64,000 nt of DNA from Limosilactobacillus fermentum (GTDB taxonomy: Bacteria; Bacillota; Bacilli; Lactobacillales; Lactobacillaceae). Positions 1,520-62,521 of this stretch are shown here, in pieces. The notes under the pieces were generated by a model. It was not told where the DNA came from and ran no database searches. It was given only the letters and a program-made list of their open reading frames with translations. The position numbers and the translations under genes were made by a program. The stretch spans positions 1,595,112-1,659,111 of the forward strand of contig NZ_CP040910.1 in the NCBI RefSeq assembly GCF_013394085.1. The letters run 5' to 3'. Numbering within the stretch: position 1 is the stretch's first letter; each line of letters starts with the position of its first letter.

Positions 1520-1615
1520 ACGAGTGGCAATTAAGTTTCCAACGGGAATGACTAAATTTAGCGGTAGGGTAGTTGGTCCGTGGCGTTCTTTAGCCGTACT
1601 TAACCTCCGGGTCTT
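1520..1615 (+). repeat. Intergenic palindromic repeat, copy 1 (degenerate)
   Basis: This gap between two converging genes carries a diverged member of the dispersed family described in the findings. It shares GAGTGGCAATTA and GGAATGACTAA at its left. It then shares a GGTTGGT-like middle and CCGTACTTA at its right with the copies near 34200, 52500 and 62450. Its outer arms pair poorly. Confidence 0.5.
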
Positions 1616-1657
1616 TTGTTTTCTTTGGGTATGTTTTTATAAATTCTCCGGGAATTC

Positions 1658-1694
1658 AAAAGGGGACTGGAAAAACACGTTTCCTCAGCCCCCT
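1658..1694 (-). terminator. Intrinsic terminator of the AbrB-DUF998 gene
   Basis: A hairpin with arms AGGGG-CTG and CAG-CCCCCT and a loop around AACACG. On the minus strand it is followed by TTTTG, just past the stop codon at 1703. Confidence 0.6.
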
Positions 1695-1702
1695 AGTTAT
1701 AA

Positions 1703-2878
1703 TTAATGACTAACCCCGTCATTTTCTTCGGCCACCAATTCGACGGTAAAGAGGCGGACGTCCCTTTGCACGACGGCTTCAATTAACTGGAAAAGTAACA
1801 AAATCCACGAAAACGCGATCCCAAAGGCCAGCATTTCAAAAGCGGTTAAAGAAAGGTAGCGGACGAACTTAAAAGCGATGTAACTAACGGCCAACACGCC
1901 ACCGATCACGTAAGAAAGGGTCAAGAAGGTCTTAGTCATCATTGGCATCGTCCACCGAACCACTACCACCAAAATTAACATGGTGTAAACCATCCACATG
2001 GCGATGCGATCGTGAAGAAGGTGAAAACGTGGGTCATTTGGAAACAGCCCGACCCCACCTAGGCAAGCTGCCATTAAGTTAAGTAGCCAGCGGGTCACTT
2101 GAACCCGCCAGCCGGGGTACTTCTTGGACAGGTTGACAAACAAATAGTCAATCAAGGTCAACATCAGCATTGCCGAAAAGATCAGGGTAATATTAAACTG
2201 CCAGCTATTCGACGAGTTTGCCGTCCCCAGGAAGCTAAAATTATGACGCCACCAATCCTTATTGGAATTAGTTAACATCGAGAAGAACACCCCCCCAATA
2301 ATCATGAATGTCATTAGGTTAGTAATCACCCCGGGAGAAATCGTCATGGCCAGGTTGATCATGATGTAAGTAACCATGGCAATCACCAAAAAAATCAGGG
2401 CGCCGGCCGTGTAAATGTCAAAAACGGCCCCGTGAAAAAGCGACCCCACCAACCAGGCTCCCGCCACCAACGAAAAGGCGGTAATCGTCCCGCAAGCAAC
2501 CATAATGCTGATCATAGCCCGCCAAGAAAATTCCTGCGCCCGGCCACGATGGTGACGTTTTTGGCTAATGAAGGTGCTGGCAAAGGCCAATAACCCGCTT
2601 AAAGTAGCAAGGTAAAGGCTAGACGACGCCACCGAATCACCCCCCACCAGTGGCAAGAGGTGGTAGCCTTGGTTAATCATATCGGCGTAAAACAACAACG
2701 TCAGTACTAAGGCGGGGCCAAAGTACCACCGGAGCTTGATTTGGGGTAAACTGTCAGCCAACCGCAGTGGGCGAATCACCAACTGGTTGCCTTCCACCCA
2801 CATTGCTAAGGGCTCGCCATCTTTAATTTCTAACTGGTCCCGGGCGACCTTGGGAACTTCCACGCGATAATTCTTCAA
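1703..2878 (-). CDS. AbrB-like domain fused to a DUF998-type membrane protein
   Basis: 391 residues. The first 40 or so (VEVPKVARDQLEIKDGEPLAMWVEGNQLVIRPL, here split: VEVPKVARDQLEIKDGE then PLAMWVEGNQLVIRPL) look like a swapped-hairpin AbrB/SpoVT-MazE DNA-binding fold. The rest has about nine or ten hydrophobic segments and resembles DUF998 integral membrane proteins. The start is TTG at 2876-2878 with AAGGAG seven bases before it. Neighbours give no functional clue. A membrane-tethered AbrB domain could act as a sensor-regulator or could have been recruited for protein contacts; the function is unknown. Confidence 0.75.
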   Translation of the reverse strand: MKNYRVEVPKVARDQLEIKDGEPLAMWVEGNQLVIRPLRLADSLPQIKLRWYFGPALVLTLLFYADMINQGYHLLPLVGGDSVASSSLYLATLSGLLAFASTFISQKRHHRGRAQEFSWRAMISIMVACGTITAFSLVAGAWLVGSLFHGAVFDIYTAGALIFLVIAMVTYIMINLAMTISPGVITNLMTFMIIGGVFFSMLTNSNKDWWRHNFSFLGTANSSNSWQFNITLIFSAMLMLTLIDYLFVNLSKKYPGWRVQVTRWLLNLMAACLGGVGLFPNDPRFHLLHDRIAMWMVYTMLILVVVVRWTMPMMTKTFLTLSYVIGGVLAVSYIAFKFVRYLSLTAFEMLAFGIAFSWILLLFQLIEAVVQRDVRLFTVELVAEENDGVSH

Positions 2879-2969
2879 TCCACTTCTCCTTGTTAACTGA
2901 TTTTATACTTACTAGATTATCATCAATTTAGACCACTACCACACTCTCACTAAAATTTAATTATAAAGT

Positions 2970-2998: not shown

Positions 2999-3032
2999 AG
3001 GGCAATACACTTAAACTACGGGGGGACTCACG

Positions 3033-12786: not shown

Positions 12787-12789
12787 CGG

Positions 12790-19945: not shown

Positions 19946-21082
19946 GAGTATATTAACTGCCGCATTAATATCTCGATCGTGATGAGTACCACATTTAGGA
20001 CAAGTCCATTCTCTAATTTCAAGTGGTTTCTTCCCACTATGGTAACCACACGTGCTACAGATCTGACTGGTGTAATTAGGATTAACAGTAATTAACTGTT
20101 TACCGTACCAATCACACTTGTATTCCAGCATGGTTCTAAATTGGTACCAACTGGCATTCGCAATAGCTTTAGCTAAATGGTGATTCTTTTGTAGATTCTT
20201 GGCTTTCAAATCTTCAATGACAATCACATCGTATTTTTTAACTAAGGCTGTTGTTAGTTTGTGTAAGTAATCTTGACGTTGGTTCGCTATCCGTTGTTGG
20301 TAGCGAGCCTTTTGTTTTTGAGCCCGTTGCCAATTCTGATAATCATTGAGATCCATTTTTACGTCTTTATGATTATGGTTCCATTGGCGAACAGCTACGG
20401 TTGCTTGATATTTTCGGCGACTATACTTGCTTTGCCACTTTGTGGCTTGCTTTTCCAACCACTTAGCATTGAAAGTACCAAACTTTTCACCGTCAGAACT
20501 AATCGCTAAGTCAGCGATCCCAACATCCAGGCCAACGGTCTTGCCTGTTTTTGGCAATGCTTCTGGAGCAACAGTCTCGACCTGCAAAGATAAGTAGTAG
20601 CGACCAGTTGGACCATAGCTGACGGTATAACGCTTAATTTTGCCATTTACAGCTTGAGAGGTCTTACTAGTTCGAATGCTTCCTAACTTAGGTAGCTTCA
20701 TTCTTCTCTTGGCAATCACTGTGCAGACCGACCGACCAGTATATGACTGTTTGGCGGCGTGCCTGCTTTTAAAGCGTGGATAGCCACCACGATGTTTAAA
20801 CAGCATCTTAAAAGCTTGGACTAGATTATGGTTCACCACAAGGAAACTAGTCGCATCGCTGTCTTTAAGATAGGGATATTCTTGTTTCAACTGTTTAAGC
20901 AAGTAATTCATTCCATATTCATTTACAAAATGACTGCTAGGATTGTTTTGATAGCGTTGCTTAGCCATATCTAGCATGAGATTCCACACTCTACGGTCAT
21001 TGCCGAACATTTGCCATAGTTGAGCTTGTTGTTGCTTGTTAGGGTACAAGCGTAGCTTGACCCCTTTAATTAATTTGGTCAT
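19919..21082 (-). CDS. tnpB: RNA-guided endonuclease TnpB (IS200/IS605 family)
   Basis: 387 residues, full length. The RuvC-like catalytic residues are visible: the aspartate in [12 protein letters not shown] (near residue 185), the glutamate in [12 protein letters not shown] (near 290) and the final aspartate in [12 protein letters not shown] (about 369-371). The zinc finger has C342, C345, C361 and C364. TnpB cuts DNA complementary to its omega RNA next to a short TAM, which is thought to help the element persist. The gene overlaps tnpA by ATGA, implying translational coupling. Confidence 0.93.
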
Positions 21083-23076: not shown

Positions 23077-23095
23077 GAATGGCGGGGAAATTCCG

Positions 23096-23182: not shown

Positions 23183-23309
23183 TCTGATATTTACGTTACC
23201 CTAAGTCAACCACACTTCCGCCCAAAAGAAAAGGGGCAGTTTGAATTACCGGGGACCAAAATTTACAAGAACTTTACCAAAGACTGACCATAGCTCCTCT
23301 TCCCCTTGC

Positions 23310-29680: not shown

Positions 29681-29796
29681 GGGTGGGTGAGAAATAACAT
29701 CCGCTGTGGGTCGTACGTAAAATTGGCCGAACGTTTGATGCGGCACACACCATTCTGCGGCCTGCTTAGTCACTAGGCCTGTGGTTATTCCCCACA
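29681..29796 (+). repeat. Intergenic palindromic repeat, copy 2
   Basis: GGGGTGGGTGAGAAATAAC at the left and GTTATTCCCCAC at the right pair as outer arms. Inside, CTTAGTCACTAGGCCTGTGG matches the other copies. It lies between two converging genes. The 5' inner arm is diverged. Confidence 0.65.
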
Positions 29797-29824
29797 TTTT
29801 CTATCTAACATTCGTGAATACAGT

Positions 29825-29871
29825 AAGAGGCTGTGAGAAATGCGCTTTTCTCACAGCCTCTTGTTGTTTTT
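29825..29871. terminator. Bidirectional terminator
   Basis: AAGAGGCTGTGAGAAA and TTTCTCACAGCCTCTT pair perfectly around TGCGCT, serving the esterase and the converging PAP2 gene. Confidence 0.9.
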
Positions 29872-29879
29872 TCGCATGT

Positions 29880-30548
29880 TTAATACCAAGAGTTATGGGT
29901 CATCTTCCACCGCCGCAGCCGTGGGGCGTACCAAACGTACACCCCTTCGGAAAATTGTAGCCAGGCGTAAGCCAACAGCATGGCGCCAAAGGTGTCAGAT
30001 GGGTAGTGGGCCTGCAAGTATACCCGTGAGATTGCCACGAGGACCACCGCAAAGATCAACACCAGTTGAATAATTACCCGGGTGGCCCCACTCCGAATCA
30101 ACGGTACCACGACCAGGCTAATGATCGCCGCAATCAAGAAGAAGCCCAAAACGTGACCACTCGGGAAGGAGTAGCCGGTGTCAGACACCGGGTGTTGGGC
30201 CGGGCGGTCTCGCTTAATAACGTGTTTGACGATGGTCCCTAAAACGTCACCCCCAAATAGGGTCAAGAGGGCCCAGACCGCGGGAATTTTACCCTTAAAG
30301 CCCCAGAGGAAAAAGGCAATAATTAAGCCCCAGAGGATATCCATTTTCGGGCTAGCCAAAAAGGCGGTCAACACCATTAGGGTGTGGACAAAACCGGTCG
30401 TCTTGCTAGAGGTAAAGAGGGCCTGGCAGACCGTGTCTACCGTTGTGATCAGCATCGAATTCTTGTAAATCATCGCAGCCACCACCAAAAAAATGACGGT
30501 TGTCACGATCAAGCGCATGGGACGCTTGCGATCTCGTTCAATTAGCAT
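29880..30548 (-). CDS. PAP2-family membrane phosphatase
   Basis: 222 residues, about six membrane segments. All three PAP2 motifs are present: KHVIKRDRP, PSGH (in YSFPSGHVLG) and SRVYLQAHYPSD. Such enzymes dephosphorylate phosphatidic acid, phosphatidylglycerol phosphate or undecaprenyl diphosphate outside the membrane. uppP lies 6 kb away, so overlap in lipid-carrier recycling is possible. The specificity is not determined by the sequence. Confidence 0.9.
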   Translation of the reverse strand: MLIERDRKRPMRLIVTTVIFLVVAAMIYKNSMLITTVDTVCQALFTSSKTTGFVHTLMVLTAFLASPKMDILWGLIIAFFLWGFKGKIPAVWALLTLFGGDVLGTIVKHVIKRDRPAQHPVSDTGYSFPSGHVLGFFLIAAIISLVVVPLIRSGATRVIIQLVLIFAVVLVAISRVYLQAHYPSDTFGAMLLAYAWLQFSEGVYVWYAPRLRRWKMTHNSWY

Positions 30549-34088: not shown

Positions 34089-34121
34089 TATGCGCTTCGT
34101 ATAACGTTTAAAATTATAAAA

Positions 34122-34160
34122 GTGAGGCAGGGAGAAAAACGGATTTCTCCCTGCCTCTTA
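34122..34160. terminator. Bidirectional terminator after the CDF gene
   Basis: GAGGCAGGGAGAAA and TTTCTCCCTGCCTC pair perfectly around AACGGA. Confidence 0.88.
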
Positions 34161-34177
34161 CTGTATATCAGAATGTT

Positions 34178-34242
34178 AGAGAGAAAGCGTGGCCAACAAC
34201 TATGGGCCTAGTCATCCGACCTGCAGCTAATTGCCACTCTCT
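34178..34242 (-). repeat. Intergenic palindromic repeat, copy 3 (short)
   Basis: On the minus strand GAGTGGCAATTA and GGATGACTAGGCCC match copy 1 and the family core, and GTTGGCCACGC closes it. It is shorter (about 65 nt) and starts right at the stop codon of the interrupted VIT1-family gene. Confidence 0.5.
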
Positions 34243-34529
34243 TTAAAATAACCGTCCAACGCCGTAGTGAATGGTGATCGTGATTAAACCAATCACGATG
34301 TTTCTAATTACGGCGACCTTAACCAACCCATCCCCCAACTTCGAGAAAATGTAACCGGTCAAAGCAGACGATAAGATCACTGCTAAGATTGTCGCGTACC
34401 ACTTCAAGCCCGCCGGGGCCAAAATCATCGCCATTAGAGGTAAGATCCCCCCTAGAGCAGCCGCAAATAGCGAGGCAAAGGCGGCGTCCCACGGGTTGAG
34501 GTAGTGGCCAAGTTCAATATCATATTTAA
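34243..34529 (-). pseudogene. VIT1/CCC1-family transporter, 3' part (split by an IS)
   Basis: The C-terminal 95 residues of a VIT1-family (vacuolar iron transporter-like) protein, KYDIELGHYLNPWDAAFASL to HYGVGRLF. It continues the 5' part at 36536-36943. Joining the two at the IS ends restores an alignment with the intact paralogue at 36961-37644 without missing residues, which places the insertion in the loop before the fourth membrane region. Confidence 0.88.
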
Positions 34530-45750: not shown

Positions 45751-46590
45751 CTACTTGATGTTGATAAAGTCGACCTTGAACAAACGTGCCAATTGTTCTA
45801 ATTGTTCTTCGCTTAGGGCTAGGGTCAAGACGGTGTGGTGACCACCACCGTACTTCATCCATTGCTTAGCACCCTCAGCCAACCCAATTTCTGGCGTCCA
45901 CATTTGCTTAGCGACCGGCAACTTCGGCATTTCGGCTTCTGGCGTCTTGCAGTCAACCGGGTAGCCAATGAACTTGTAGCCATCATCGAAGTAAGACAGG
46001 GTAATGTCGTAACCCTTCCCTTCGGCCCCAGTGAAGACCAGGCGCGCCGGGTCGTCCTTGCCACCAATCCCCAGTGGGTGAACTTCCACGCGCGGCTTGT
46101 CGGAGGCCAGGGTTGGGTCAACTTCTAGCATGTGCGAACCCATGATGGCTTCGTGACCGTGACGAAGGTCCAGCGTGTAGTCTTCCATCAGGGCGGTTTG
46201 CTTGTTGTCGGCGGCAATCTTAAGCAAGCGGGTTAAGCCGGCCATCTTGAAGTCCCCTTCAGGACCAAAGCCGTAACCATCAATCATCAACAGTTGAACG
46301 GCCAGCCCTGGCAGTTGTTCTAAGCCTTCCAGGTCTTGGAAGTTGTCGGTGAAGGCATCGTAGCCATTGTCATCCAAGAACTTCTTGATCCCCAGGTATT
46401 CACGGAGTTGGTAGCGAACGTTGTGAACGTACTTTTCGTGGTCGTTGTCACCTTCAACCAAGTCATAGTTAGCTTCCAAGTCCTTGTAAGCGGCGTCGAT
46501 TTCGTCTTCGGCGATTCCGTTTACCACCGCTACCAATTCGTTGGTCGGGTAGTAATCAACTGTCCAACCAAACTTGATTTGAGCGGCTGA
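45751..46590 (-). pseudogene. araA: L-arabinose isomerase, 5'-truncated
   Basis: About 280 residues corresponding to the C-terminal 60% of AraA (usual length about 475). Recognisable blocks are [59 protein letters not shown] and [16 protein letters not shown]. The coding similarity ends at about 46590, where a 45-bp palindrome begins. The N-terminal catalytic half is gone and no other ara genes are present, so arabinose use through this locus is excluded. Confidence 0.9.
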
Positions 46591-46634
46591 AGTGAACCCC
46601 CGAGATTGTTGTCCAATCTTGTGGGTTCACTTCA
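46589..46634. repeat. 45-bp near-perfect palindrome at the araA break
   Basis: GAAGTGAACCC at 46589-46599 faces GGGTTCACTTC at 46623-46633, with AGATTG/CAATCT pairing further in. It looks like two IS tips placed head to head, as left after IS excision or deletion, or a small MITE. It marks the truncation point of araA. Confidence 0.65.
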
Positions 46635-46669
46635 AGCTAGTTTTCTCTCAACCTCTTACTGTCTTTTCA

Positions 46670-46725
46670 AACCTTGGATAACAAACACGGGAACCAACCG
46701 TCCACCGGAAGTTATCTCCCACTCC
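46670..46725 (-). repeat. Intergenic palindromic repeat, copy 4 (degenerate, low confidence)
   Basis: On the minus strand GAGTGGGAGATAACTTCC and GGTTGGTTCCC resemble the left end of the copy at 52469 and the end of the copy at 50608. GATAAC and GTTATC pair as outer arms. It lies directly past the stop of the pseudouridine synthase gene. Confidence 0.35.
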
Positions 46726-46728
46726 CTA

Positions 46729-47613
46729 CTAATTTAACCCATCCCACAGGGTCTTGAAGGCAACCGGCATTTCAACGTCAAAGGCCAGGTTCGTTTGGGT
46801 AAACGGATCGGTGAAGGCCAGGTGGCTGGCGTAGAGGGCTTGGTGGTCGGTCACGCTAAGGTCACCGCCGTACAAGTGGTCGCCTAAAAGTGGGTGCCCA
46901 ACGCTGGCCATGTGCACCCGAATCTGGTGGGTCCGCCCGGAGTGTAAGCGCAAGCGCACCAAGGTCCAATCCCCCCGACTTTCTTCGGCCCAGTATTCGG
47001 TTTTTGCCGGTTGGCCAGCCGGGTTAACCTCACGTTCGATTTGCCCCTTGATGCGAGCGATCGGAGTGTCAATGATACCATGCTCCTTAGCAAAGGTTCC
47101 GGCCACAATCGCCCGGTACTCTTTTTGCATCGTGTGCCCCTCAACTTGGGGGCTGATCATGCTGGAGGCGACGTTGTGCTTAGCCACCAATAGTAGTCCG
47201 GCCGTATCGCGGTCCAAGCGGGTAATTAAGTGGGGGCGCAGATCCGGCGCGTCCTTGGCCACTAGGTAGCCCTTCACCCGGTTTAGGATCGTCCCGTTGA
47301 CCACGTGGGGGCCGGGAACCGAGGCTACCCCCACTGGTTTGTTCACGACCAACCAGTTGTCATCCTCGTAGACAATCGTCAGTGGCTCTTCGGAAGTCGC
47401 TACGGTGGCGTCACCCGGTTCAGGTTGGACGGTCAGGGTCAGCGGTTGGTTCGGCAAAATTTTGGTGGTTGGCCGTACCCGCCGGTGGTCGACTTGGAAC
47501 TCGCCAGCCCCGTTTTTGATGTCGTTGAAAAGACGGTGCCCCATCCCTAGCGAATGAAGAAAGGTTTTAATCTTAATTGGTTCTTGGCCCCGGTAGACCC
47601 ACGTGTTTTCCAT
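46729..47613 (-). CDS. RluA-family pseudouridine synthase
   Basis: 294 residues. The catalytic motif HLITRLDRDTAGLLLVAKH (near residue 140) contains the essential aspartate. The N-terminal 60 residues form a reduced S4-like region, and the C-terminal RLHSGRTHQIRVHMASVGHP and LLGDHLYGG are also diagnostic. RluA-family enzymes isomerise uridines in 23S rRNA or tRNA; which site is modified is not determined. ATG at 47611-47613 behind AAAGGAG. Confidence 0.9.
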   Translation of the reverse strand: MENTWVYRGQEPIKIKTFLHSLGMGHRLFNDIKNGAGEFQVDHRRVRPTTKILPNQPLTLTVQPEPGDATVATSEEPLTIVYEDDNWLVVNKPVGVASVPGPHVVNGTILNRVKGYLVAKDAPDLRPHLITRLDRDTAGLLLVAKHNVASSMISPQVEGHTMQKEYRAIVAGTFAKEHGIIDTPIARIKGQIEREVNPAGQPAKTEYWAEESRGDWTLVRLRLHSGRTHQIRVHMASVGHPLLGDHLYGGDLSVTDHQALYASHLAFTDPFTQTNLAFDVEMPVAFKTLWDGLN

Positions 47614-47886: not shown

Positions 47887-50475
47887 ATGAGTCACCTGAT
47901 TAGTCAACTCAAGACCCTTTGGGGACATTATTCACGATACTTAAAGGTTATCTTTATCATTTCGGTAATCCTGTTTGTGATTACTTCTTTGACCGGGTTC
48001 CTGCGCGGCGTTAACTGGGACCGGGTCGGCGACGGGCTGAGCTCGCTTTCGCCCTTAACGATCGCCCTGCTCACCATCGCCGGGATTGTCTCTGTCATCC
48101 CGATGCTGGGTTATGACGTCGCCATCACCCACCTCTTGCCTGGCAAGTTTACCGTCGGCCACATCATCAGGAGCGGCTGGGTCACCAACACCCTGACCAA
48201 CGTCGCCGGCTTCGGTGGCCTGCTCGGGGCGTCTCTGCGGGCGACTTTTTACGGCCAGCAGGCCAGCAAAAAGGAAATCCTAAACGCAATTGCCAAAATT
48301 GCTATCTTCTTGGTGGCCGGTCTATCGGTGATGTGTTGGGTCGCCTTGGTCCTCATGTTTGGTTTTCACCAGGGGGGCCACTTTAACCGTTACGCCATCT
48401 GGCTGGTCGGCGGTGGACTATACTTCCCGGCCGTCTTTTTCTTCACCCGCTGGAAGTCCAAGAGCCTCTTTGCCGACCTGTCGTGGCGCCTGGAATTATT
48501 GATCATCATTTCCTCGACGCTCGAATGGCTAGGGGTCGCCCTCTTCTTCGTCTTCGTTGGGGCAATGATGGGCGTCCACGTTAATCTGGTCGCCGTTTTC
48601 CCGCTTTACGTGGTCGCCCAACTGCTCGGGGTCGTTTCCATGCTACCGGGGGCGCTGGGTTCCTTTGACCTAATGATGATGGTCGAGTTGGTCATGCTGG
48701 GGGTTCCCCACGCCACCACTGTCGTCTGGTTGGTCTTGTTCCGGGTCTTTTACTACTTGATTCCACTGGCCCTGGCCGGGATCTTCTTTGTTCACTACCT
48801 CTGGCTCCAGCTCGATAACTTCTTGGACCACCTCCCGCAAGCGGCCGGTCACCAAGTCGCCCACTGGGTGGTGACGACCTTCATGTACGGCTCGGGGATC
48901 TTGATGCTTTTAGCCGCTTCGGTTCCCGACCTGGCCGATAACAACAAGCTCTTGCAACAGGTCTACCCCTTCACCTTTTTCTTCTTGCATCAGCTAACGA
49001 CGGTGGCCTTTGCAATCGCCCTGCTGGCTTGTGCCCGCGGGATCCAGGCCAAGGTTGCTAAAGCCTACTGGCCCTCGCTAGCCCTGCTCGTAATCGGAAT
49101 TGCCAACACCCTGTGGTACCTAGGCACCCTTAGCTTAGCGATCTTCTTAGCGGTCCTATTTTTCTTGACCCTGGCGATGCGCCACGTCTTATACCGTAAA
49201 AAACTCCAGTACTCGCTAGGTAAGTTCACCCTCGACGCCGTTATCTACGCCGGGGCGGTGATCTTATACGTCATCGTTGGTCTCGTTAACAACCCCACCT
49301 ACATGGCCAAGCACTCGATCCCGAGTTTCCTGCTCTTCCCCGGCGAAAAGGTGTGGCTGTCGGGCTTTATTGGCATCCTGATCGGTCTGTCGATCATGCT
49401 TTTGATCATCCACTACTTCACCTCGGGGCCCGACCCCTTCGCTGGCGAACAAAAGCTACCGGTTGACCGGGTCAACGCCCTGATTGAAGAATTTGGGGGC
49501 AACGAAACCTCCCACCTGGCCTTTTTAAAGGACAAGAACCTCTACTTCTACCAGGTTGACGGCCACGACCGCCTCTTTTTCATGTACCGGCGCAAGTACG
49601 ATAAGTTGATCGTGATGGGGAATCCGGTCGGAGACCAAACCGTCGTCCGTGAGGCGAGCCTAGAATTTCTACGCGAAGCCAACTTATACGGTTACCAACT
49701 GGTCTTTTACGAGGTCAATAGCCAACTAACTATGCTCCTGCACGAATTTGGGTTTGACTTCCTAAAGACCGGTGAAGACGGATTGGTCAAACTTGCCGAC
49801 TTTACCTTGGCCGGTAAGAAACAACGCTCCCAACGGGCCTTAATGCACAAGTTTGAGCGGGAAGGTTACCAATTCACCATCGTTGAACCACCCTTTTCCG
49901 ATGAGCTGATGCAAGAAATGCGGGCCGTTTCCGACGACTGGTTGGGTGACCAAGTTGAAAAGGGCTTTTCCTTAGGCTTCTTTGATCCCGACTACATCAA
50001 CACCGCCCCGGTGGCCCTGGTCGATGACAAGGACGGCAAGTTGGTGGCCTTTGCCACTCTGATGCCGACCGGGGGTAAGGAGATCCTGACGATCGACTTG
50101 ATGCGTCACTCCCACGCCGCCCCGTCCGGAATCATGGATATGATCTTTGTTTCAATGTTCTTGTATGGTCAGGAAAAGGGCTACACCTACTTCGACCTTG
50201 GGATGGCCCCACTAGCCAACGTTGGTGAATCGCGGTACTCCTTTACCGAAGAGCGGGCTGCCCACTTCATCTACGAATACGGGACCCATCTCTACGGCTT
50301 CCAAGGCCTGCGCCGCTACAAGGATAAGTACGCTAGCGAGTGGCACTCCCGCTACACCGTCTACCGCAAGAAAAACTCCCTGTTGGCCACCATGATCGCC
50401 CTAGTATCGGTCGTTAACCAACGTGCCGATCAAAAGGTTGACCGCCACCCACTAATGATGTGGTGGAAGAAATAG
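47887..50475 (+). CDS. mprF: Phosphatidylglycerol lysyltransferase (MprF)
   Basis: 862 residues. The N-terminal 520 residues hold about 14 membrane segments (flippase, with NVAGFGGLLGASLRA and LGVVSMLPGALGSFD). The C-terminal DUF2156 domain (from about 530) transfers an aminoacyl group from tRNA to phosphatidylglycerol, with FLREANLYGYQLVFYEV, LIDLMRHS-like and FDLGMAPLANVG blocks. The product lowers the negative surface charge and protects against cationic peptides. ATG at 47887 behind TAGGAGGAG. Confidence 0.93.
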   Translation: MSHLISQLKTLWGHYSRYLKVIFIISVILFVITSLTGFLRGVNWDRVGDGLSSLSPLTIALLTIAGIVSVIPMLGYDVAITHLLPGKFTVGHIIRSGWVTNTLTNVAGFGGLLGASLRATFYGQQASKKEILNAIAKIAIFLVAGLSVMCWVALVLMFGFHQGGHFNRYAIWLVGGGLYFPAVFFFTRWKSKSLFADLSWRLELLIIISSTLEWLGVALFFVFVGAMMGVHVNLVAVFPLYVVAQLLGVVSMLPGALGSFDLMMMVELVMLGVPHATTVVWLVLFRVFYYLIPLALAGIFFVHYLWLQLDNFLDHLPQAAGHQVAHWVVTTFMYGSGILMLLAASVPDLADNNKLLQQVYPFTFFFLHQLTTVAFAIALLACARGIQAKVAKAYWPSLALLVIGIANTLWYLGTLSLAIFLAVLFFLTLAMRHVLYRKKLQYSLGKFTLDAVIYAGAVILYVIVGLVNNPTYMAKHSIPSFLLFPGEKVWLSGFIGILIGLSIMLLIIHYFTSGPDPFAGEQKLPVDRVNALIEEFGGNETSHLAFLKDKNLYFYQVDGHDRLFFMYRRKYDKLIVMGNPVGDQTVVREASLEFLREANLYGYQLVFYEVNSQLTMLLHEFGFDFLKTGEDGLVKLADFTLAGKKQRSQRALMHKFEREGYQFTIVEPPFSDELMQEMRAVSDDWLGDQVEKGFSLGFFDPDYINTAPVALVDDKDGKLVAFATLMPTGGKEILTIDLMRHSHAAPSGIMDMIFVSMFLYGQEKGYTYFDLGMAPLANVGESRYSFTEERAAHFIYEYGTHLYGFQGLRRYKDKYASEWHSRYTVYRKKNSLLATMIALVSVVNQRADQKVDRHPLMMWWKK

Positions 50476-50507
50476 GAGTGTGACCCAACCTTCTATATAC
50501 CATCAAA

Positions 50508-50553: not shown

Positions 50554-50607
50554 ACTTGGAAAGAAGTTTGACAATCTCTATTTCATTTTCACTATTACAC
50601 AGATAAC

Positions 50608-50718
50608 GTGGTCACCAACCGCAGGCCTAGTATCTAAGTACGGCCGAAGAACGCTGCTTAACACAGCAACCTTCTGCCTAGCTTAGCTATACACCCTGCC
50701 ATACAGGTTGGTTCCCAC
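50608..50718 (-). repeat. Intergenic palindromic repeat, copy 5
   Basis: GTGGTCACCAACCGCAGGCC on one side and CCTGCCATACAGGTTGGTTCCCAC (positions 50695-50718) on the other form the long imperfect hairpin. CTAAGTACGGC and GCCTAGCTTAG pair inside. Preceded by GATAAC. It lies between the converging mprF and DJ-1/PfpI genes. Confidence 0.8.
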
Positions 50719-50750
50719 TTCGAAACCCAGGTGCGAGGGCGTTTTATTGT

Positions 50751-51335
50751 CTAGTGGTTGTTCTCTAATAGGTAAGGGTAGAGCATTTGACGACGAACCT
50801 CGGCAGCATCCACCCCTAAGGCGTCCGCAATGCAATAGGCAAAGGCCAAGGCCGTTGCCGGTCCCCGGCTGGTGATCAACTTTCCCTTTTCATCGACCAC
50901 GTTAATGTCTTCGTGGAAACGACCGCTGGGAGCGACCTGCGTGGTCGTTTGCTCAATCCCCGGAAAACAAGTGTAGTCGTGACCATCCAAGAGTCCGTAG
51001 CGGGCAAAGGCAATTGGGGCGGCGCACATGGCGGCGTTCCACTCCCCCGCTTGTTGGCGCCGTTGCATCAATTGCATCAAGCGATCATCATCGCGCAATG
51101 CCTTTGCGCCACCCGAGCCGCCGGGAAAGACCACGCAATCGAACCCCAAGAGCCCCTCGCCTACTTCGGCTAGGCTAGTATCGCAAGTTAAGGCAATCTG
51201 GTGGGCCCCTATCACTTGGCGATCATCTAGGCCCACCATCGTCGTTTCAATCCCCAACCGGCGAAAAACATCTACCGGCGTCAGGGCCTCGATTTCTTCA
51301 CAACCTGGGGCAATCATTACCGCTACTTTTGTCAT
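50751..51335 (-). CDS. DJ-1/PfpI family protein (YajL/ThiJ type)
   Basis: 194 residues. The nucleophile cysteine C104 sits in NAAMCAAPIAFA and the partner glutamate in the N-terminal PGCEEIEALTPVDVFRR, as in YajL and DJ-1. Proposed roles of the family include repair of glyoxal adducts and oxidative-stress protection. It overlaps nothing and lies 15 nt downstream of the esterase gene, possibly in one transcript with it. Confidence 0.9.
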   Translation of the reverse strand: MTKVAVMIAPGCEEIEALTPVDVFRRLGIETTMVGLDDRQVIGAHQIALTCDTSLAEVGEGLLGFDCVVFPGGSGGAKALRDDDRLMQLMQRRQQAGEWNAAMCAAPIAFARYGLLDGHDYTCFPGIEQTTTQVAPSGRFHEDINVVDEKGKLITSRGPATALAFAYCIADALGVDAAEVRRQMLYPYLLENNH

Positions 51336-52349: not shown

Positions 52350-52468
52350 CTGCGTTCCCCTTATCAAAATTTTGTGTGCATTCCTCGTTTCTCTCTAGTT
52401 AAAATCCTAACACGGTCCACGCCCCGGTCGTTAGCGATTTCCCGTTAAGTTTTGGTAAAAGAAGGGAA

Positions 52469-52578
52469 GTGGGAAATGACCTTCTCGACAGACCGTATGA
52501 CTAAGCTAGGGGGAAGGTTGGTGCCTTGGCACCGTTCTTCGTCCGTACTTAGGCACTAGGTCTGTGGTCATTTTCCAC
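52469..52578 (+). repeat. Intergenic palindromic repeat, copy 6
   Basis: GTGGGAAATGACC...ACAGACC at the left pairs with GGTCTGTGGTCATTTTCCAC at the right; CTAAG and CTTAG and GGTGCC/GGCACC pair inside. Compared with copies 5, 7 and 8 the arm CAGGCC/GGCCTG has become CAGACC/GGTCTG, a paired change. It lies 7 nt past the stop of the UDG-family gene. Confidence 0.85.
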
Positions 52579-52584
52579 CACCCC

Positions 52585-53256
52585 TTATTGCGGCATCAAA
52601 TGCTGTTCTTTTAGCCACTTCCCGAAGGCCTGCCAGTCGGCACGCACGGTCGGTTCTAGGCGCCGAGCGTACAAAAAGGCGGCTGGGTGATACATTGGCA
52701 CAATGTAGTAAGGGGTCGTCCCCATTTGATAACCCTGGTGATCCGGCCGGGTTTCTAAGACCAACTGGTGCAAGACCTGACCGTGCAAGTCACCAATCTT
52801 GGCCTCTGGTCCCAGCAAGCGTTGGAGGCTGGTGTTGCCTAGGGGCACAACCACCTGAGGGGTGACTGTCTTTAATTCCCAGTCAAAGAGGGGCCCAAAG
52901 GCTAGGACCTCCTTTTTGGTGGGGGTGCGGTTGGGGTACTTGGTGACCCGCTGCCCAGTTTTCTTATCGGTGACCACCTTAACCGAGTACGGCCGCTTGC
53001 GGACCACCGAGGTGATGTGGACGGTCGCCCGCGACAAACCAATTTCTTCTAGCAACTTGATTAATTCCTTACCCGAAGTCCCACTAAAGGGCACCCGGCT
53101 ATCGGTCTCACTGCGCCCGGGAGCCTCACCCACCAGCATTACCGCCGGATGGTTTGGTCCAGCCCCCGGTACAAAGCCCATTAGGGGACGATCCTTGATC
53201 GCTGCCTCTACTTGGTCAACTAACTGCTGAGGATACTCAATTTGCACGCTGATCAC
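52585..53256 (-). CDS. Uracil-DNA glycosylase family protein without Fe-S cysteines
   Basis: 223 residues. The water-activating motif LVGEAPGRSETDSRVPFSG (near 42-60) and the C-terminal PMYHPAAFLY motif place it in the family 4/5 branch of the uracil-DNA glycosylase superfamily, which removes uracil from DNA. Classical family 4 enzymes bind a [4Fe-4S] cluster through four cysteines; I find no cysteine in this sequence (for example VVRKRP where KCRPP is usual). So it must fold without the cluster. ATG behind AGGATAGG; 8 nt past the ThrE-type gene. Confidence 0.8.
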   Translation of the reverse strand: MISVQIEYPQQLVDQVEAAIKDRPLMGFVPGAGPNHPAVMLVGEAPGRSETDSRVPFSGTSGKELIKLLEEIGLSRATVHITSVVRKRPYSVKVVTDKKTGQRVTKYPNRTPTKKEVLAFGPLFDWELKTVTPQVVVPLGNTSLQRLLGPEAKIGDLHGQVLHQLVLETRPDHQGYQMGTTPYYIVPMYHPAAFLYARRLEPTVRADWQAFGKWLKEQHLMPQ

Positions 53257-55606: not shown

Positions 55607-55645
55607 AAAAGGGCCCCCACGGCCGTGCCCCAGGGGTCCTTTTTA
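55607..55645 (-). terminator. Terminator of the fumC-frd-transporter operon
   Basis: AAAAGGGCCCC and GGGG-CCTTTTT close a hairpin with CACGGCCGTG inside. It lies about 140 nt past the transporter stop codon, beyond repeat copy 7, and close to the start of the LysR gene. Confidence 0.75.
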
Positions 55646-55670
55646 ATTAGTAATTTCATTTACGGATAAC

Positions 55671-55779
55671 GTGCTCCCAACCGCAGGCCTAGTGCCTAAG
55701 TCTGGCCACAGAACACCGCTGGCGCGCTAACCTGTGCCCTATCCTTAGTCCAACGGCCTGCTTAATGGTTGGATCACAC
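55671..55779 (-). repeat. Intergenic palindromic repeat, copy 7
   Basis: GTGCTCCCAACCGCAGGCCT at the left and GGCCTGCTTAATGGTTGGATCAC at the right (55756-55779) form the arms; CTAAGTCTGG and CCTTAG pair inside. Preceded by GATAAC. It lies 8 nt past the stop of the DASS transporter gene, before its terminator, so it should be part of the operon's 3' untranslated region. Confidence 0.82.
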
Positions 55780-55786
55780 TTCCTGA

Positions 55787-57208
55787 TCACCACATCCCAA
55801 TCACCTTCATCCAGAGGCTCCCAATCCCGATCCAAACGACCAGGTAGAAGACCCCCAGAACCAGGTTCAAGGACCACCACTTGTTTTGCGGGACGTAACC
55901 AGACCCAAACAAAACCGGAGCCGGGCCAGAAGCGTAGTGGGTGGTTGAGGCGTTTAAGTTCCCAAAGAACCCGAGCAATAAGGCCGCCAGCATTGGCGGT
56001 ACGTGAGCGGAGATGGCTACGGCTAACAGGGCCGAATACATCGCCGTTACGTGGGCCGTTGAACTAGCGAAGAGGTAGTGACTGTAGAAGAAGAAGACAA
56101 TCAAGATCGCCAAGACCAAGAACCAACTCATCCCGTGCAACATACTACCGATGCTTGAAGAAAGCCACGGAATAAAGCCCAGGGTGGTCAAGGAACCAGC
56201 CATCATAACCAAGACGGAGAACCAGGTCAGGGTGTTCCAAGCCCCGGTTTCGTGCAAAACGTCGGTCCAGCTCAGGACCCCAACGACCAAGAGCAGGCCT
56301 AAGGTTAAGAAGGCAGCTAGGCTGGCGTCGATCTTGGTCAGGCTCCCGGTCATCCAGAGGACCAGAGCAATGATGAAGATAACGGCCATTAGCTTTTCTG
56401 GTAGGGTCATCTTCCCCATTTGATCCAGTTCCTTTTCCGCCCACTGCTTAGCGTTGGGCGTTTCCTTAATCTCCGGCGGGTACATCTTGTAGATCAACCA
56501 GGGAACGACGATCAAGGAAATAATTCCCGGAACCAGGGCGGCTAAGAACCAGCCTCCCCAGCTGATGTTCACTCCGCTTGACTTGGCTAGGGTTTGGACC
56601 AGGGGGTTAGCGGCCATCGCCGTCATAAACATGGCGGCGGTGATCATGTCCCCGTGATATTCGGCAAAGACCAAGAAGGAGCCGATCTTGCGTTCCGTCC
56701 CGTCCTTGGGGTCGGAGCCAAAGGATTGGGCCAAGGACTTAATGATTGGGTACAAGACCCCACCGGCCCGGGCGGTGTTGGACGGGGTGGCCGGGGCCAT
56801 GATCAAGTCGACCCCAATTAAGGAATAGGCCAGCCCCAGCGTTTTCTTACCGAAGAGGCGGACGAAGTTAAGGGCGATTCGCCGTCCCAACCCGGTCTTG
56901 ATAAAGCCCCGGGCGATGAAGAAGGCCATGGCAATCATCCAAATTGAGCTGTTCCCAAAGCCTAAGATCGCCTTATCCATCGGCAAGGTGCCGGTCAAAA
57001 CGGTCAGGGCAAAGGCGAGAATTGAGACACCCCCGATTGGTAGGGGCCGGGTGATGCAGGCAATGATCGTCCCGACAAAGAGGGCGAACATGTGCCAGCC
57101 GGCCACGGGAACGGCCGCTGGCTTCATTGGCGTGAGCAGCCACAAAATGACCCCCACGATTACCGGCCAGATAAAGCCCCGGTAATTGACTTTTTCTAAA
57201 TTCTTCAT
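55787..57208 (-). CDS. DASS-family dicarboxylate transporter (CitT/TtdT type)
   Basis: 473 residues, about 12 membrane segments. The DASS blocks IWMIAMAFFIARGFIKTGLG and the SNT-like APATPSNTARAGGVLYPI are clear, and SSTAHVTAMYSA carries the second substrate loop. CitT-type members exchange a dicarboxylate or citrate for succinate. It is third in the operon fumC-frd-dass, so malate or fumarate uptake in exchange for succinate is the simplest model. RBS AGGAAG before ATG. Confidence 0.9.
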   Translation of the reverse strand: MKNLEKVNYRGFIWPVIVGVILWLLTPMKPAAVPVAGWHMFALFVGTIIACITRPLPIGGVSILAFALTVLTGTLPMDKAILGFGNSSIWMIAMAFFIARGFIKTGLGRRIALNFVRLFGKKTLGLAYSLIGVDLIMAPATPSNTARAGGVLYPIIKSLAQSFGSDPKDGTERKIGSFLVFAEYHGDMITAAMFMTAMAANPLVQTLAKSSGVNISWGGWFLAALVPGIISLIVVPWLIYKMYPPEIKETPNAKQWAEKELDQMGKMTLPEKLMAVIFIIALVLWMTGSLTKIDASLAAFLTLGLLLVVGVLSWTDVLHETGAWNTLTWFSVLVMMAGSLTTLGFIPWLSSSIGSMLHGMSWFLVLAILIVFFFYSHYLFASSTAHVTAMYSALLAVAISAHVPPMLAALLLGFFGNLNASTTHYASGPAPVLFGSGYVPQNKWWSLNLVLGVFYLVVWIGIGSLWMKVIGMW

Positions 57209-57243
57209 ATTGATTTCTTCCTAATCAGTTCTCTTGTTTCTTA

Positions 57244-58635
57244 CTATTTCTGACTTTGGTACAAGGCGACTTGTTGACCGGCTTGGCGCCCAAAGATCAC
57301 GATTTCGGCGATCGAGTTACCCCCGACCCGGTTATTCCCGTGTAGGCCCCCGGCAACTTCACCGGCGGCAAACAGTCCCGGAATCACGTTCCCGTTGCCA
57401 TCCAAGACCTCTGTATGGGTGTTGATGTGTAAACCACCCATCGTGTAGTGGATCGCTGGGGCAATGTGGATGGCGAAGAAGCCTGGCTTGGCGATGTCGC
57501 GGTCCATCCCGGTCGTCCGGCTAAATTCCTGGTCATCGTGGTCCTTGACCGCTTGGTTCCAGGTCGCCACCGTCTTTTTCAGGGTAGCTGGCGCCATGGA
57601 GAGTTTTTGGGCGAGCTCTTCGATGGTGTTGCCGGAAACCACTAGCCCCACCTTGTCGTAGAAGTCGACGGCCTTGGCCCGGTCACGGATCCCCTGGTCA
57701 AAGATCAGGTAAGCGGAGTGCTCCGGCAAAGCGGTGATGGCGTTGGAGACGATCTTACGGGTGTTTAACTCGTTGACGAAGCGTTGCCCCTTGGCGTTAA
57801 CCAGGATTGCCCCTTCGCCCCGGACGACTTCACCAATCAAATAAACGTGCGGGTTATCTTGTTGAACGGTCGGGTGGACTTGAATCAAGTCCATTTGAAC
57901 TAGCTGCGCCCCGACGTCTTCGCCGAGTTTCAGGCCGTCGCCGGTGGCCCCCGGTTGGTTAGTCGTCTTGTAATCAACCAGGTCTGGGCGGTAGCGCTTC
58001 ATGTATTCCTTAGAAGCGCCGAAACCACCGGTCGCTAGGATAACGCTGTTGGCCGCGATCGTCTTGGTGCCGGCCGTGGTTTGGACTTCGACCCCGTTAA
58101 CGGTCCCCTGATCGTCTTTTAACAACTTAGTGACCTTGGTCTGGTTGAAGACCGGGATTCCTTGTTGGCCAACCACCCGCAACAACTCGTTGACCAAGAA
58201 TCCACCGATCGGGGCTAAGCTAGCCGGGCGGTGGGTCCGCATCACCGACATCCCCCCGGTGATCGTGACGTCTTCTAACTTGATGTCGTGATCGGCCAGC
58301 CAGTCAATCGCCAGGGCGGAGTGGTGAACGAAGTAACCCAAGAGGTCCTTATCGTTTAAACGACCGCCGTCTTGGTAGGTTTCCCGGTAAAAGGAGCCGA
58401 CGTTATCGATCACCCCGTGCTTTAATTGGACGTTGGTTTCGGCGGCGTTCATCCCGGATGAGGCCCGGTTAGTGTTCCCACCTAAGCCTTCTTCTTTTTC
58501 AAGGACGACGGCTGAAAGCCCTAGTTCATGGGCTTGGATGGCGGCCGTCAAGCCGGCCCCCCCGGAACCAATGATCACCGTGTCGTAGCGGTCCTTTAAC
58601 TCACTGGCCGGGCGTGGTTGAAATTTTTCTCCCAT
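57244..58635 (-). CDS. Soluble FAD-dependent fumarate reductase (flavocytochrome c type catalytic subunit)
   Basis: 463 residues. FAD-binding motif VIIGSGGAGLTAAIQAHELG near the N-terminus, then GLGGNTNRASSGMNAA, and the C-terminal MGGLHINTHTEV, GLFAAGEVAGGLHGNNRVGG, all typical of the FAD subunit of fumarate reductases and related enzymes. No signal peptide and no FMN-binding domain are present, so it acts in the cytoplasm and needs an outside electron donor. It lies 9 nt downstream of fumC. The NAD(P)H:FMN reductases across the intergenic gap are candidate donors. Urocanate or other enoates cannot be excluded as substrates. Confidence 0.88.
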   Translation of the reverse strand: MGEKFQPRPASELKDRYDTVIIGSGGAGLTAAIQAHELGLSAVVLEKEEGLGGNTNRASSGMNAAETNVQLKHGVIDNVGSFYRETYQDGGRLNDKDLLGYFVHHSALAIDWLADHDIKLEDVTITGGMSVMRTHRPASLAPIGGFLVNELLRVVGQQGIPVFNQTKVTKLLKDDQGTVNGVEVQTTAGTKTIAANSVILATGGFGASKEYMKRYRPDLVDYKTTNQPGATGDGLKLGEDVGAQLVQMDLIQVHPTVQQDNPHVYLIGEVVRGEGAILVNAKGQRFVNELNTRKIVSNAITALPEHSAYLIFDQGIRDRAKAVDFYDKVGLVVSGNTIEELAQKLSMAPATLKKTVATWNQAVKDHDDQEFSRTTGMDRDIAKPGFFAIHIAPAIHYTMGGLHINTHTEVLDGNGNVIPGLFAAGEVAGGLHGNNRVGGNSIAEIVIFGRQAGQQVALYQSQK

Positions 58636-60415: not shown

Positions 60416-61029
60416 ATGAAGCACTACATTGGGATTGCTGGAACCAACCGTCAAGGCTCCACCAACCGCCGCTTGTTGCAGTTCATCAAGGAACACTTCG
60501 CCGACAAGGCCGAAATTGAATTGATGGACATTGGTGGCCTGCCGGTCTTCTACAAGACCCCGGACCGCTCAGTTCCGGAACGGGTAACTGAAATGGCCAA
60601 GAAGATCGAAGCATCCGACGGGGTCATTATTTCCACCCCTGAATACGACCACGGGGTCCCGGCCGTTTTGATGAACGCCTTGGAATGGCTTTCTTACGGT
60701 GTGCACCCCTTTGCTGACAAGCCGGTAATGATTACCGGGGCGTCATACGGGATGCTTGGGACTTCCCGGGCCCAACTCTGATGCTACGCCAGATGCTGGA
60801 CTCCCCGGAACTGTCCGCCCGGATCATGCCATCATCCGAATACATGGTGGGCCACTCCTTACAAGCCTTTGACGACGAAGGGAACCTCAAGGAAGGGGCC
60901 CTCGTCAACCGCTTGGACGGCTTATTCGCCGACTTCGACACCTTCGTCGACGTCAACAAGAACCTGGTCTATGACCGTGAACACGTGATGCAAGACATCC
61001 GCGTTTCCGACCTGAAGAACGACTTATAA
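60416..61029 (+). pseudogene. NAD(P)H-dependent FMN reductase, frameshifted
   Basis: The first frame, from MKHYIGIAGTNRQGSTNRRL to GASYGMLGTSRAQL, contains the flavodoxin-like flavin-binding parts (STPEYDHGVPAVLMNALEWL). It stops at TGA 60779-60781. The second frame starts at an overlapping ATG (TGATG) and continues MLRQMLDSPELSARIMPSSE to the end. The paralogue next door reads through the same place without interruption. Either the gene is broken or two coupled polypeptides are made; I favour a frameshift mutation. ATG 60416 behind GAGAGG. Confidence 0.8.
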
Positions 61030-61048
61030 ACCAAGGAGGAACCTACGC

Positions 61049-62407
61049 ATGAAGTTAGTTGGGATTGTCGGCTCCATCGCCGAAGATTCATACAACCGCA
61101 AATTAATGACCTTTATGGCCAACCGTTTCAATAACATCGCCGACATTGAAGTCGTTTCAATCAAGGACGTACCGATGTTTTCCGAAGACGACGACCAAAC
61201 CAACGGGATGGCCGTTCAATACTTGAAGCACCGAATTGAAAACGCCGACGGGGTGATCATGGCCACCCCTGAACACAACCACACCACGACCGCCGCTTTG
61301 AAGTCGACAATCGAATGGCTGTCCTATAAGATCCACCCGTTAGAAGACAAGCCGGTCCTGATCATAGGGGCCTCTTACTTCACCCAGGGTTCTTCCCGGG
61401 CCCAATTGGACCTGCGCGAAATCTTGGAAGCCCCAGGGGTTAACGCCCTCGTGATGCCGGGGAACGAATTCTTGTTGGGGAACGTTCGCGACGCCTTTGA
61501 CGACAACGGCAACTTAAAGGACGGCGGCACGATTAACCGTTTGAGCAACTTGTTGATCAAGTTCTCCAAGTGGGTCAACGTCTTGAAGGCCTTAAAGGGC
61601 CCAGAACCGGCCGACGCCTACAAGAATGAAGACCTGACTGCCTCCGGGAAGACTGACACCACTATCGAAGGGGTGAAGCCCGGTGACCCAGACTGGATTG
61701 AAAAGGCCGCTAAGTTGACCAACGCCGCTTCCGGCAAGGACTACGTTAAGCTCGACGCTGGGATCCTGACCGTTGACCAACTTAACTGGTTCTTAAAGTC
61801 GATCCCGGCCGAACTGACCTACGTCGACGACAACAACCAGTTCCTCTACTACAACCACAAGGCCCCGGCTGAAAAGATGTTTGCCTCCCGGACCCCGCAA
61901 CAACCGGGTTCCCCGATGTCGGCCGTTCACCCGGACAAGCGGAATGTCCACGACCACGTTAAGCAAGTCATCCACACCCTACGGACCGGTAAGACCGACA
62001 TGTTCCAACTGGCCGAACCAGTGGACAAGAAGAACGCTAAGTGGGTGGTTAACAACTACCAAGCCATTCACGACGAAGACAACATTTACCGTGGGATTAA
62101 CGAAATCGTGATCGACTTCTGGCCAATCGTCAAGAAGTACCTGGAAATGACCGGGCAAACCCTGGTTGACGACCCGAACAGCAAGGTGGACGCTAACGCC
62201 AGTGCTTCTACCAAGGAAGAAGCCGCCACCGAGGCTCCCGCCGTTGACGCTAGCGCCAGTGCTTCCGAAAGCGAAACGGAAAGCCAACCGGCACCGGCAC
62301 CGGCACCAGCTACTCAAGCACCGGCCGTTGACGCCGACGCCAGTGCCTCAGAAGAAGACGCACCAGCACAACCGGAAGTCGACGCTGACGCCAGTGCAAG
62401 TAAATAA
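61049..62407 (+). CDS. NAD(P)H:FMN reductase fused to a PAS-like domain and a repetitive acidic tail
   Basis: 452 residues in three parts. Residues 1-185 are a flavodoxin-like NAD(P)H:FMN reductase (GIVGSIAEDSYNRKLM, MATPEHNHTTTAALKSTIEW). Residues about 235-380 resemble the PAS-like C-terminal domain of DUF438 proteins (AELTYVDDNNQFLYYNHKAP, then FASRTPQQPGSPMSAVHPDK and HVKQVIHTLRTGKTD). Residues 385-452 are a proline- and alanine-rich acidic tail with four copies of VDAxASAS. It lies 19 nt past the frameshifted paralogue and probably shares its transcript. A role as electron donor to the fumarate reductase is inferred from position. Confidence 0.82.
   Translation: MKLVGIVGSIAEDSYNRKLMTFMANRFNNIADIEVVSIKDVPMFSEDDDQTNGMAVQYLKHRIENADGVIMATPEHNHTTTAALKSTIEWLSYKIHPLEDKPVLIIGASYFTQGSSRAQLDLREILEAPGVNALVMPGNEFLLGNVRDAFDDNGNLKDGGTINRLSNLLIKFSKWVNVLKALKGPEPADAYKNEDLTASGKTDTTIEGVKPGDPDWIEKAAKLTNAASGKDYVKLDAGILTVDQLNWFLKSIPAELTYVDDNNQFLYYNHKAPAEKMFASRTPQQPGSPMSAVHPDKRNVHDHVKQVIHTLRTGKTDMFQLAEPVDKKNAKWVVNNYQAIHDEDNIYRGINEIVIDFWPIVKKYLEMTGQTLVDDPNSKVDANASASTKEEAATEAPAVDASASASESETESQPAPAPAPATQAPAVDADASASEEDAPAQPEVDADASASK
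62186..62401 (+). repeat. Four copies of a 24-bp coding repeat (VDAxASAS)
   Basis: Copies at 62186-62209, 62243-62266, 62337-62360 and 62378-62401 read GT(G/T/C)GACGC(T/C)(A/G)(A/G/C)CGCCAGTGC plus a variable end. Synonymous drift between copies shows that the protein repeat is kept while the DNA diverges. Confidence 0.9.
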
Positions 62408-62412
62408 CGGAA

Positions 62413-62521
62413 GTGCGCCCAACCCGTTCGGCAGGCCGTATGGCTAAGCTAGGGCAAATGGTTACCGCCTTAGCGGTGTCCTTTACCCGTACTTAGACAC
62501 TAGGCCTGCGGTTGGGAGCAC
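62413..62521 (+). repeat. Intergenic palindromic repeat, copy 8 (best preserved)
   Basis: Left arm GTGCGCCCAACC...GGCAGGCC pairs with the right arm GGCCTGCGGTTGGGAGCAC; GGCTAAG/CTTAGAC and ACCGCC/GCGGT pair inside. Followed by GTTATC, as the mirror image of copies 5 and 7. It lies directly past the stop codon of the FMN reductase-PAS gene. Confidence 0.88.

Follow-up and report, generated by a model that had tools for sequence, protein, structure and literature searches.

What the long palindromes are that recur at the 3' ends of genes in a 64,000-nt stretch of the Limosilactobacillus fermentum genome (NZ_CP040910.1, positions 1,595,112 to 1,659,111; 'the window' below means this whole stretch) is the question addressed here. 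A sequence-only reading had described eight intergenic copies of about 110 nt with paired base changes in their arms. The observation is confirmed as real and is larger than first described. Our preferred reading, to which we give a probability of about 0.5, is a structured RNA in the 3' untranslated region at translation stops, comparable to the stop-proximal repetitive extragenic palindromes (REPs) of Escherichia coli and multiplied like a repeat in L. fermentum.

Copies were first collected by BLAST, which gave 60 element places in the window's own genome, and a covariance model (R1) was built from 32 copies. Two further models were used, R2 from 30 copies and a later model R3; the E-values of such models are rough. 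With R1 the L. fermentum genome has at least 150 matches (150 scored of 1031 candidates), all with E ≤6e-9, and the genome-wide counts on sites, position and terminators rest on these best 150 of the 1031 candidates. Twelve further places outside the 150 were listed by a later BLAST, two of which were scored by model, at 69.3 bits (R1) and 96.4 bits (R3).

The unit is a rod with a median length of 122 nt, and 144 of the 150 copies measure 119-125 nt; one is a 62-nt partial. AGTG/CAC pairs form its outer end and are followed inwards by the helix CCAACC/GGTTGG, after which the 5' side alone bulges by about 6 nt. Next come CAGGCC/GGCCTG, an internal loop and CTAAG/CTTAG; a loop of 3x3 (CTA/GTA) and the terminal hairpin close the rod. 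Copies less than 400 nt apart were joined into one site. This resulted in 115 sites, of which 88 are single, 21 double, 5 triple and one fivefold. The copies lie on the same strand in all 27 multi-copy sites (none is mixed), and 29 of the 35 neighbouring pairs within them are at most 3 nt apart or overlap by at most 3 nt.

Genes were called by a home-made hexamer caller in 431.6 kb around the copies, covering the 115 sites. The element's 5' end is no more than 6 nt from a sense stop codon at 64 of these sites; for its 3' end and an antisense stop the same is true of a single site. When the sites were slid and flipped inside their own gaps in 2000 draws, the mean was 7.8 and the maximum 18. Placement at gene 3' ends, one of two points on which the sequence-only reading had staked its case, is thus non-random, with REP-like numbers; the description is now refined to a directional one, with the element starting within 6 nt of the sense stop at 64 sites. 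The first pairs of the abutting rods begin about 0-12 nt behind the stop. A hairpin in sense within 15 nt of the stop, as used to define stop-proximal REPs, is present at 64 sites already within 6 nt. At nine sites the stop codon falls inside the 5' part of the element (distances -6 and -17), and the three sites at -17 are not counted among the 64. The gene layout is converging at 58 sites, co-directional at 52 and diverging at 3, while 2 sites overlap a called open reading frame (ORF); other gaps of at least 20 nt in the same stretches are convergent in 20 cases, divergent in 58 and co-directional in 103. The deposited gene tables of strain DR9, which are incomplete, place 13 of 27 sites at a sense stop in a by-eye count for which three mirror-strand rows were dropped, tandem rows were joined and one site was placed via the start of its array.

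The position bears directly on the possibility of a selfish miniature repeat, similar to REPs or to miniature inverted-repeat transposable elements (MITEs), which would be moved by a transposase or through template switching, be tolerated at the least harmful places and have no function, its fold being needed for movement. Tolerance alone predicts spread distances and no strand bias, whereas the observed distances peak between -6 and +6 nt in sense. We consider this explanation possible but doubtful, and return to it with the strain comparison.

Directly after the element a CTGTnYA-type linker is found at 37 of the 115 sites, the full form being TCTGTCTAACATTCGTGAATACA followed by a terminator. 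Terminators were identified by a strict test, which requires a GC stem and a T-run, in sense, within 170 nt behind the element. Such a terminator follows the element at 46 of the 64 stop-abutting sites and at 15 of the 51 others, 61 of 115 in all, against none of 115 shuffled. An earlier, looser terminator finder was uninformative (106 of 115 sites versus 80 of 115 shuffled). Inside the elements the strict test found a terminator in none of 149 copies. Terminator function of the rod itself, one of the roles that had been proposed from the sequence, is therefore rejected. That the element terminates transcription between converging genes has in its favour the 58 sites with this layout, yet with the terminators lying behind the element it is hardly credible.

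The rods precede intrinsic terminators and are very stable (mean fold energy -60.6 kcal/mol over 147 copies), which would also suit a mere protector of mRNA 3' ends that blocks 3'-to-5' exonucleases after termination, ribosomes being uninvolved. This leaves the stop-pinned start unexplained, and the terminator hairpin is already a 3' block; we regard it as unlikely.

Conservation of the fold was evaluated on several alignments. The first of these, A1, is a plain MAFFT alignment with 32 copies; 98.1% of its cells are paired and double changes occur in 15 of 32 pairs, and sliding the partners reduces pairing to 37-44%. A2 has 30 rows, one being an antisense partial match (locus L032), and is model-fitted, so that its pair counts lean towards the model. 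A tree-aware null, run with our own script in the manner of R-scape on 147 distinct copies, gave 7 column pairs at E<0.05, six of which are helix pairs. RNAalifold recovered the rod in part only from a plain MAFFT alignment of the 147 copies, because the 5' arm is out of register. Covariation, the second point on which the earlier proposal depended, is significant in A1, in A2 and against the tree-aware null, and a structured element with a kept fold is supported.

The strand was read from the wobble pairs in the helices and from the folds. The pair list was set by hand from A1, and 24 of its 37 pairs were used for the wobble count, omitting misaligned pairs and two near-invariant G-U pairs. 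On the sense strand these 24 pairs contain G-U in 206 cells and A-C in 76, with G-U ahead in 16 pairs, A-C in 7 and one tie. About equal numbers are expected if the duplex, or either strand alike, is what counts, so the excess of G-U speaks for RNA. Of 147 copies, 135 fold better in sense than in antisense; the same holds for all 20 copies taken from four other genera and for 19 of the 20 in a third set, whose arrays were folded whole. Both results point to an RNA in sense with the upstream gene. They disfavour a site acting at the DNA level, such as an attC-like cassette recombination site or a binding site for a protein, e.g. gyrase, which we hold to be very improbable. For such a site one can cite that the element is a stop-proximal imperfect palindrome, that it lies behind asnB in the one L. 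sakei plasmid record viewed, and that 36 plasmid records have matches.

The element is not confined to one species. R1 matched 15 of 38 genomes including the window's own, all within the genus (14 of 21 relatives there). R2 matched 32 of 50 genomes of the genus, the own genome included, and 14 of 151 genomes of the family, where five other genera account for ten. With R3, 24 of 198 genomes in the order were matched, 15 of them outside the family, and those matches are weaker. The fetched copies have about 119-126 nt per unit, an AGTG-like start and a CACGTTT-like end, with exceptions. Length and loops are similar across genera, which counts against a selfish repeat. A TTCG-type linker is also kept, more or less intact, before a GAGG..CCTC-type hairpin in loci L227-L233 and L238.

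Position was compared as well. Of 29 copies from other members of the genus, 15 have the stop of a sense ORF (at least 100 codons) no more than 20 nt away, and 7 of these no more than 6 nt; the antisense control has 1 of 29 within 20 nt and none within 6 nt. Copies from genera g17, g34, g39 and g47 lie up to 10 nt from a sense stop in 9 of 20 cases, against 1 of 20 up to 20 nt away in the antisense control. In g17, g18 and g19, 6 of 7 copies are within 7 nt, five of these in tandem. To judge by named plasmid matches, g39 would be or resemble Latilactobacillus, and family f5 Aerococcaceae. In L. balticus (locus L130), a gene with 69% identity to the window's mprF is followed, 6 nt after its stop, by a full copy.

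Matches on plasmids were found in the 36 records mentioned. Eight plasmid stretches were viewed singly; the element is at a sense stop in four and does not abut a listed sense stop in four. According to the deposited tables, the genes with a sense stop at the element are asnB in L. sakei, a substrate-binding protein gene in L. gastricus, and pepV and a bacteriocin immunity gene in L. curvatus. Many matches of the same 77% identity to the query come from locus L156 and from some 30 plasmid records belonging to Latilactobacillus, Lactiplantibacillus and others. This uniformity suggests a single element, behind asnB in the record examined, that may have moved between genera on plasmids.

No phage match was found in 50,697 records, and viral contigs gave no exact match of one core pattern. 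Rfam at gathering score has no match over the elements of the window, and in three sets of 6, 20 and 20 relative loci (E up to 0.1, 1 and 0.1) sub-threshold matches only are found over the elements. These are a T-box and an opposite-strand snoRNA in L211 and L214 and two miRNA families in L226 and L235. The T-box match in L211 (1351-1621, minus strand; 34.8 of 93 bits) overlaps the element on the other strand.

Gain and loss were followed in a related species and in another strain. L. gorillae is syntenic over window positions 44-64 kb, and the four strong copies of the window are all missing there; its whole genome gives no R1 match at E ≤0.1. By eye, the stops at 62407 and 55787 have counterparts in the same position in L. 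gorillae. Window positions 40-64 kb were aligned with strain DR9 over 66% of their length, within 46.6-64 kb, at 99.1% identity. With both sides comparable at 21 sites, 15 blocks are equal to within 2 nt, one is off by about 11 nt, and the remaining five differ by 120, 120, 123, 153 and 240 nt. DR9 has about 153 nt more at 52463..52584. At one DR9 copy the two strains differ by exactly a 118-nt unit; only a 5' stub behind the stop is left in the window's genome. Another gap shows different copies in the two: in the window's genome the element follows the stop of the left gene by 4 nt and the right gene has none, while in DR9 it comes directly after the stop of the right gene, which converges on the left one, and the left gene has none. 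The right gene ends one codon earlier in DR9 and its frame is open for 48 codons only; the flanks are 93-94% identical, so this may be an imported haplotype.

Two further points on DR9 were noted. At window positions 55634-57268, the place of the symporter gene and its element, DR9 instead has a different symporter gene (68% over 935 nt) and citrate lyase genes. The DR9 record CP033372.1, labelled a plasmid (760 kb), is at 45000-140000 colinear with the window and has genes for the RNA polymerase beta subunit and ribosomal proteins, so it is probably a piece of the chromosome.

That the element also behaves as an unstable repeat is shown by its many copies in L. fermentum, by how few shared sites were seen and by the stubs; the two descriptions are compatible, since both can be true. 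It is on this side that a purely selfish repeat draws its support: at least 150 copies here against none detected in L. gorillae, the plasmid matches, the relics, stubs and gain or loss of units between strains, and the two haplotypes with the element at opposite ends of one gap. Opposed to it are the missing marks of a mobile system, with no target duplication, REP tag or linked transposase seen. Over the 115 sites, the longest word shared by both flanks averages 3.765 against 3.765 in the null, although the ends of the element are not sharply defined and short target duplications could be missed. Of 147 copies, one has the REP tag GTAG and two have the tag CGTC at most 12 nt from an end, and none of the 27 multi-copy sites has the alternating orientation of bacterial interspersed mosaic elements. 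The genome has 15 genes for Y1 transposases (type IS200/IS605), in four size classes of 7, 3, 3 and 2. Each class has at least two copies, and no solitary REP-associated tyrosine transposase (RAYT) was seen among the 15, as judged by size class and copy number, the ends of the insertion sequences not being compared. A link to a RAYT or to IS200 elements, one of several suggestions from the sequence, is thus unsupported by the Y1 gene set. The rod is not a REP, having neither the GTAG/CGTC tags nor alternating arrays nor a solitary RAYT that we could see. Two of the 15 Y1 genes lie in the window, at 21079-21516 and 34580-35041 on the minus strand.

A second palindromic repeat (GACAGGACAAATnTTTAGATTTGCGCAA) stands on both sides of several copies, like the ends of a MITE. 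It is present at 15 genome places with at most 3 mismatches (control 0), among them C1:111346-111522, 587685-587863 and 1518442-1518664. It may have carried some copies away from stops.

Sense orientation, the stop-pinned start, the terminator behind, the sense-only wobble and a plan shared across genera together argue for an RNA element of mRNA 3' ends. The transcript would then read stop codon, 122-nt rod (single or tandem), short linker and intrinsic terminator. As the pairs start about 0-12 nt behind the stop, the terminating ribosome should meet the rod, whose base would be within its reach given the ribosome footprint that we assume. The rod might slow termination or recycling, and might shield the mRNA 3' end from exonucleases. 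The protein output or mRNA life of the gene would thereby be set by the rod, as with stop-proximal REPs in E. coli. Units would be gained and lost probably by exchange between head-to-tail copies, at times leaving 5' stubs at the stop. The shape, the covariation, the strand bias, the position and the unit changes between strains are observed; in this scheme we infer transcription of the whole unit, contact with the ribosome, the effect on expression and the route of copies to new genes.

Several results weigh against such an RNA element. At 51 of the 115 sites the element is not within 6 nt of a called sense stop, and 35 have none within 100 nt; some sites off stop codons sit inside the second MITE-like repeat. 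Outside the Lactobacillaceae, 3 of 13 copies are within 20 nt of a sense stop. Few sites are common to different species in the part compared, and with L. gorillae lacking any R1 match no gene demonstrably depends on the element. Within the 170 nt behind the element, terminators of the opposite direction are nearly as frequent, at 38 of the 64 stop-abutting and 20 of the 51 other sites, as is expected between converging genes. Six significant helix pairs are a modest number and one significant pair (39-42) lies outside the helices, and A-C exceeds G-U in 7 of the 24 helix pairs.

A bolder proposal is a stop-codon RNA family throughout the Lactobacillales that would act on terminating ribosomes and whose copying machinery would read stops on mRNA, new copies landing in sense behind stops of unrelated sequence; this we think a long shot. 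Should the rod act on termination, the output of dozens of genes in a food bacterium in wide use would be set by a single element, and translation control by stop-proximal hairpins, as reported for E. coli REPs, would extend to a distant group via unrelated sequence. If the element is selfish, a repeat landing in sense at stop codons would be a new target rule. The regulatory and the selfish reading are both directly testable.

In the window itself, the eight stretches described earlier were read and folded individually; the folded stretches differ from the model bounds by a few nt. Four are strong copies (115-127 bits with R1, fold z -4.2 to -6.6). The full rod at 62407..62527 (plus strand, 126.7 bits) overlaps by 1 nt the TAA stop of gene 61049-62407 (FMN_red/PAS). 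The full rod at 55665..55785 (minus, 119.5 bits) follows the symporter gene 55787-57208 at 1 nt from its stop, and that at 50602..50724 (minus, 116.1 bits) follows the DJ-1/PfpI gene 50751-51335 at 26 nt from its stop. The rod at 52463..52584 (plus, 115.4 bits) has an altered 3' end, no sense stop before it, and is antisense to the 3' end of gene 52585-53256; the paired changes reported for this copy (CAGACC/GGTCTG and ATGACC/GGTCAT) are present in the sequence.

The other four of the eight stood less well. The copy at 29681..29801 (plus), 19 nt behind the end of gene 28852-29661, is decayed, with 40 bits (R1) and a fold z of -0.15. It is followed at 29802..29885 (plus) by a linker (CTAACATTCGTGAATACA) and an intrinsic terminator, GAGGCTGTGAGAAA..TTTCTCACAGCCTC with a T-run (inverted repeat I5), a pattern similar to that behind other copies. 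At 1520, 34178 and 46670, R1 with default filters and E up to 10 gave no match, and the folds are no better than chance or barely so (z 1.3, -1.9 and -0.1). These three were scored by R2 with filters off in about 250 nt each, and are best seen as relics, the latter two without the middle of the hairpin. The first, at 1518..1616 (plus; 10.8 bits, E 0.0097), is a decayed copy directly behind a TAG stop ending at 1516. In the second, at 34183..34243 (minus; 16.9 bits, E 0.00034), the arms remain around an internal deletion, and a linker (CTAACATTC) with a terminator hairpin lies behind it at 34118..34182 (minus), forming inverted repeat I2 with 29772-29860. The third, at 46681..46728 (minus; 14.5 bits, E 0.0012), also has an internal deletion and lies directly behind the TAG stop of gene 46729-47613. 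A palindrome, TTGAAGTGAACCC..GGGTTCACTTCA, is found at 46580-46642 inside the terminator region behind this relic.

Two 5' stubs were absent from the earlier list: GAGTGTGACCCAACCTTCT at 50476..50494 (plus), directly behind the TAG stop of mprF (50473-50475), and GAGGAAGTGCTCACCAACCTCC at 62614..62635 (minus), behind the TAA stop (62636) of the malic enzyme gene. The window also has a lysine riboswitch (28120-28290) and a thiamine pyrophosphate riboswitch (23093-23185), both on the minus strand.

A literature search, with subscription papers outside its reach, found no description of the element. The fold kept by paired changes, the frequent place just after stop codons, the roughly 150 copies and the relatives in related bacteria suggest an RNA element of mRNA ends that has as yet no name. 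REPs with GTAG/CGTC tags and RAYTs are likewise dispersed palindromes adjoining genes, are 20-40 bp long and often supply the stop codon by their GTAG termini (PMC3733652); here the tags occur in 1 and 2 of 147 copies and no solitary RAYT was seen. That text contains no mention of 'Lactobac' or 'Firmicutes'. BOX and RUP of Streptococcus pneumoniae (63-200 nt) and ERIC resemble the rod, by description only, as stem-loop repeats outside genes (PMC2267715). The same source, as far as available, describes Efa-1 of Enterococcus faecalis as intergenic, 163 nt long, in 65 copies, and with a predicted pair of adjacent stem-loops, and states no stop-codon rule. Compared by description only, its size would fit a rod plus terminator, and Efa-1 may be a catalogued relative. 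The closest parallel in position is with the REPs of E. coli, many of which lie within 15 nt of a stop and for which ribosome stalling has been reported (Liang, Rudd and Deutscher 2015, as cited in PMC12306157). Both are high-copy extragenic hairpins near stop codons; the rod differs in its length of about 122 nt, its conserved internal loops, its same-strand arrays, the linker and terminator that often follow it, and its lack of a GTAG tag.

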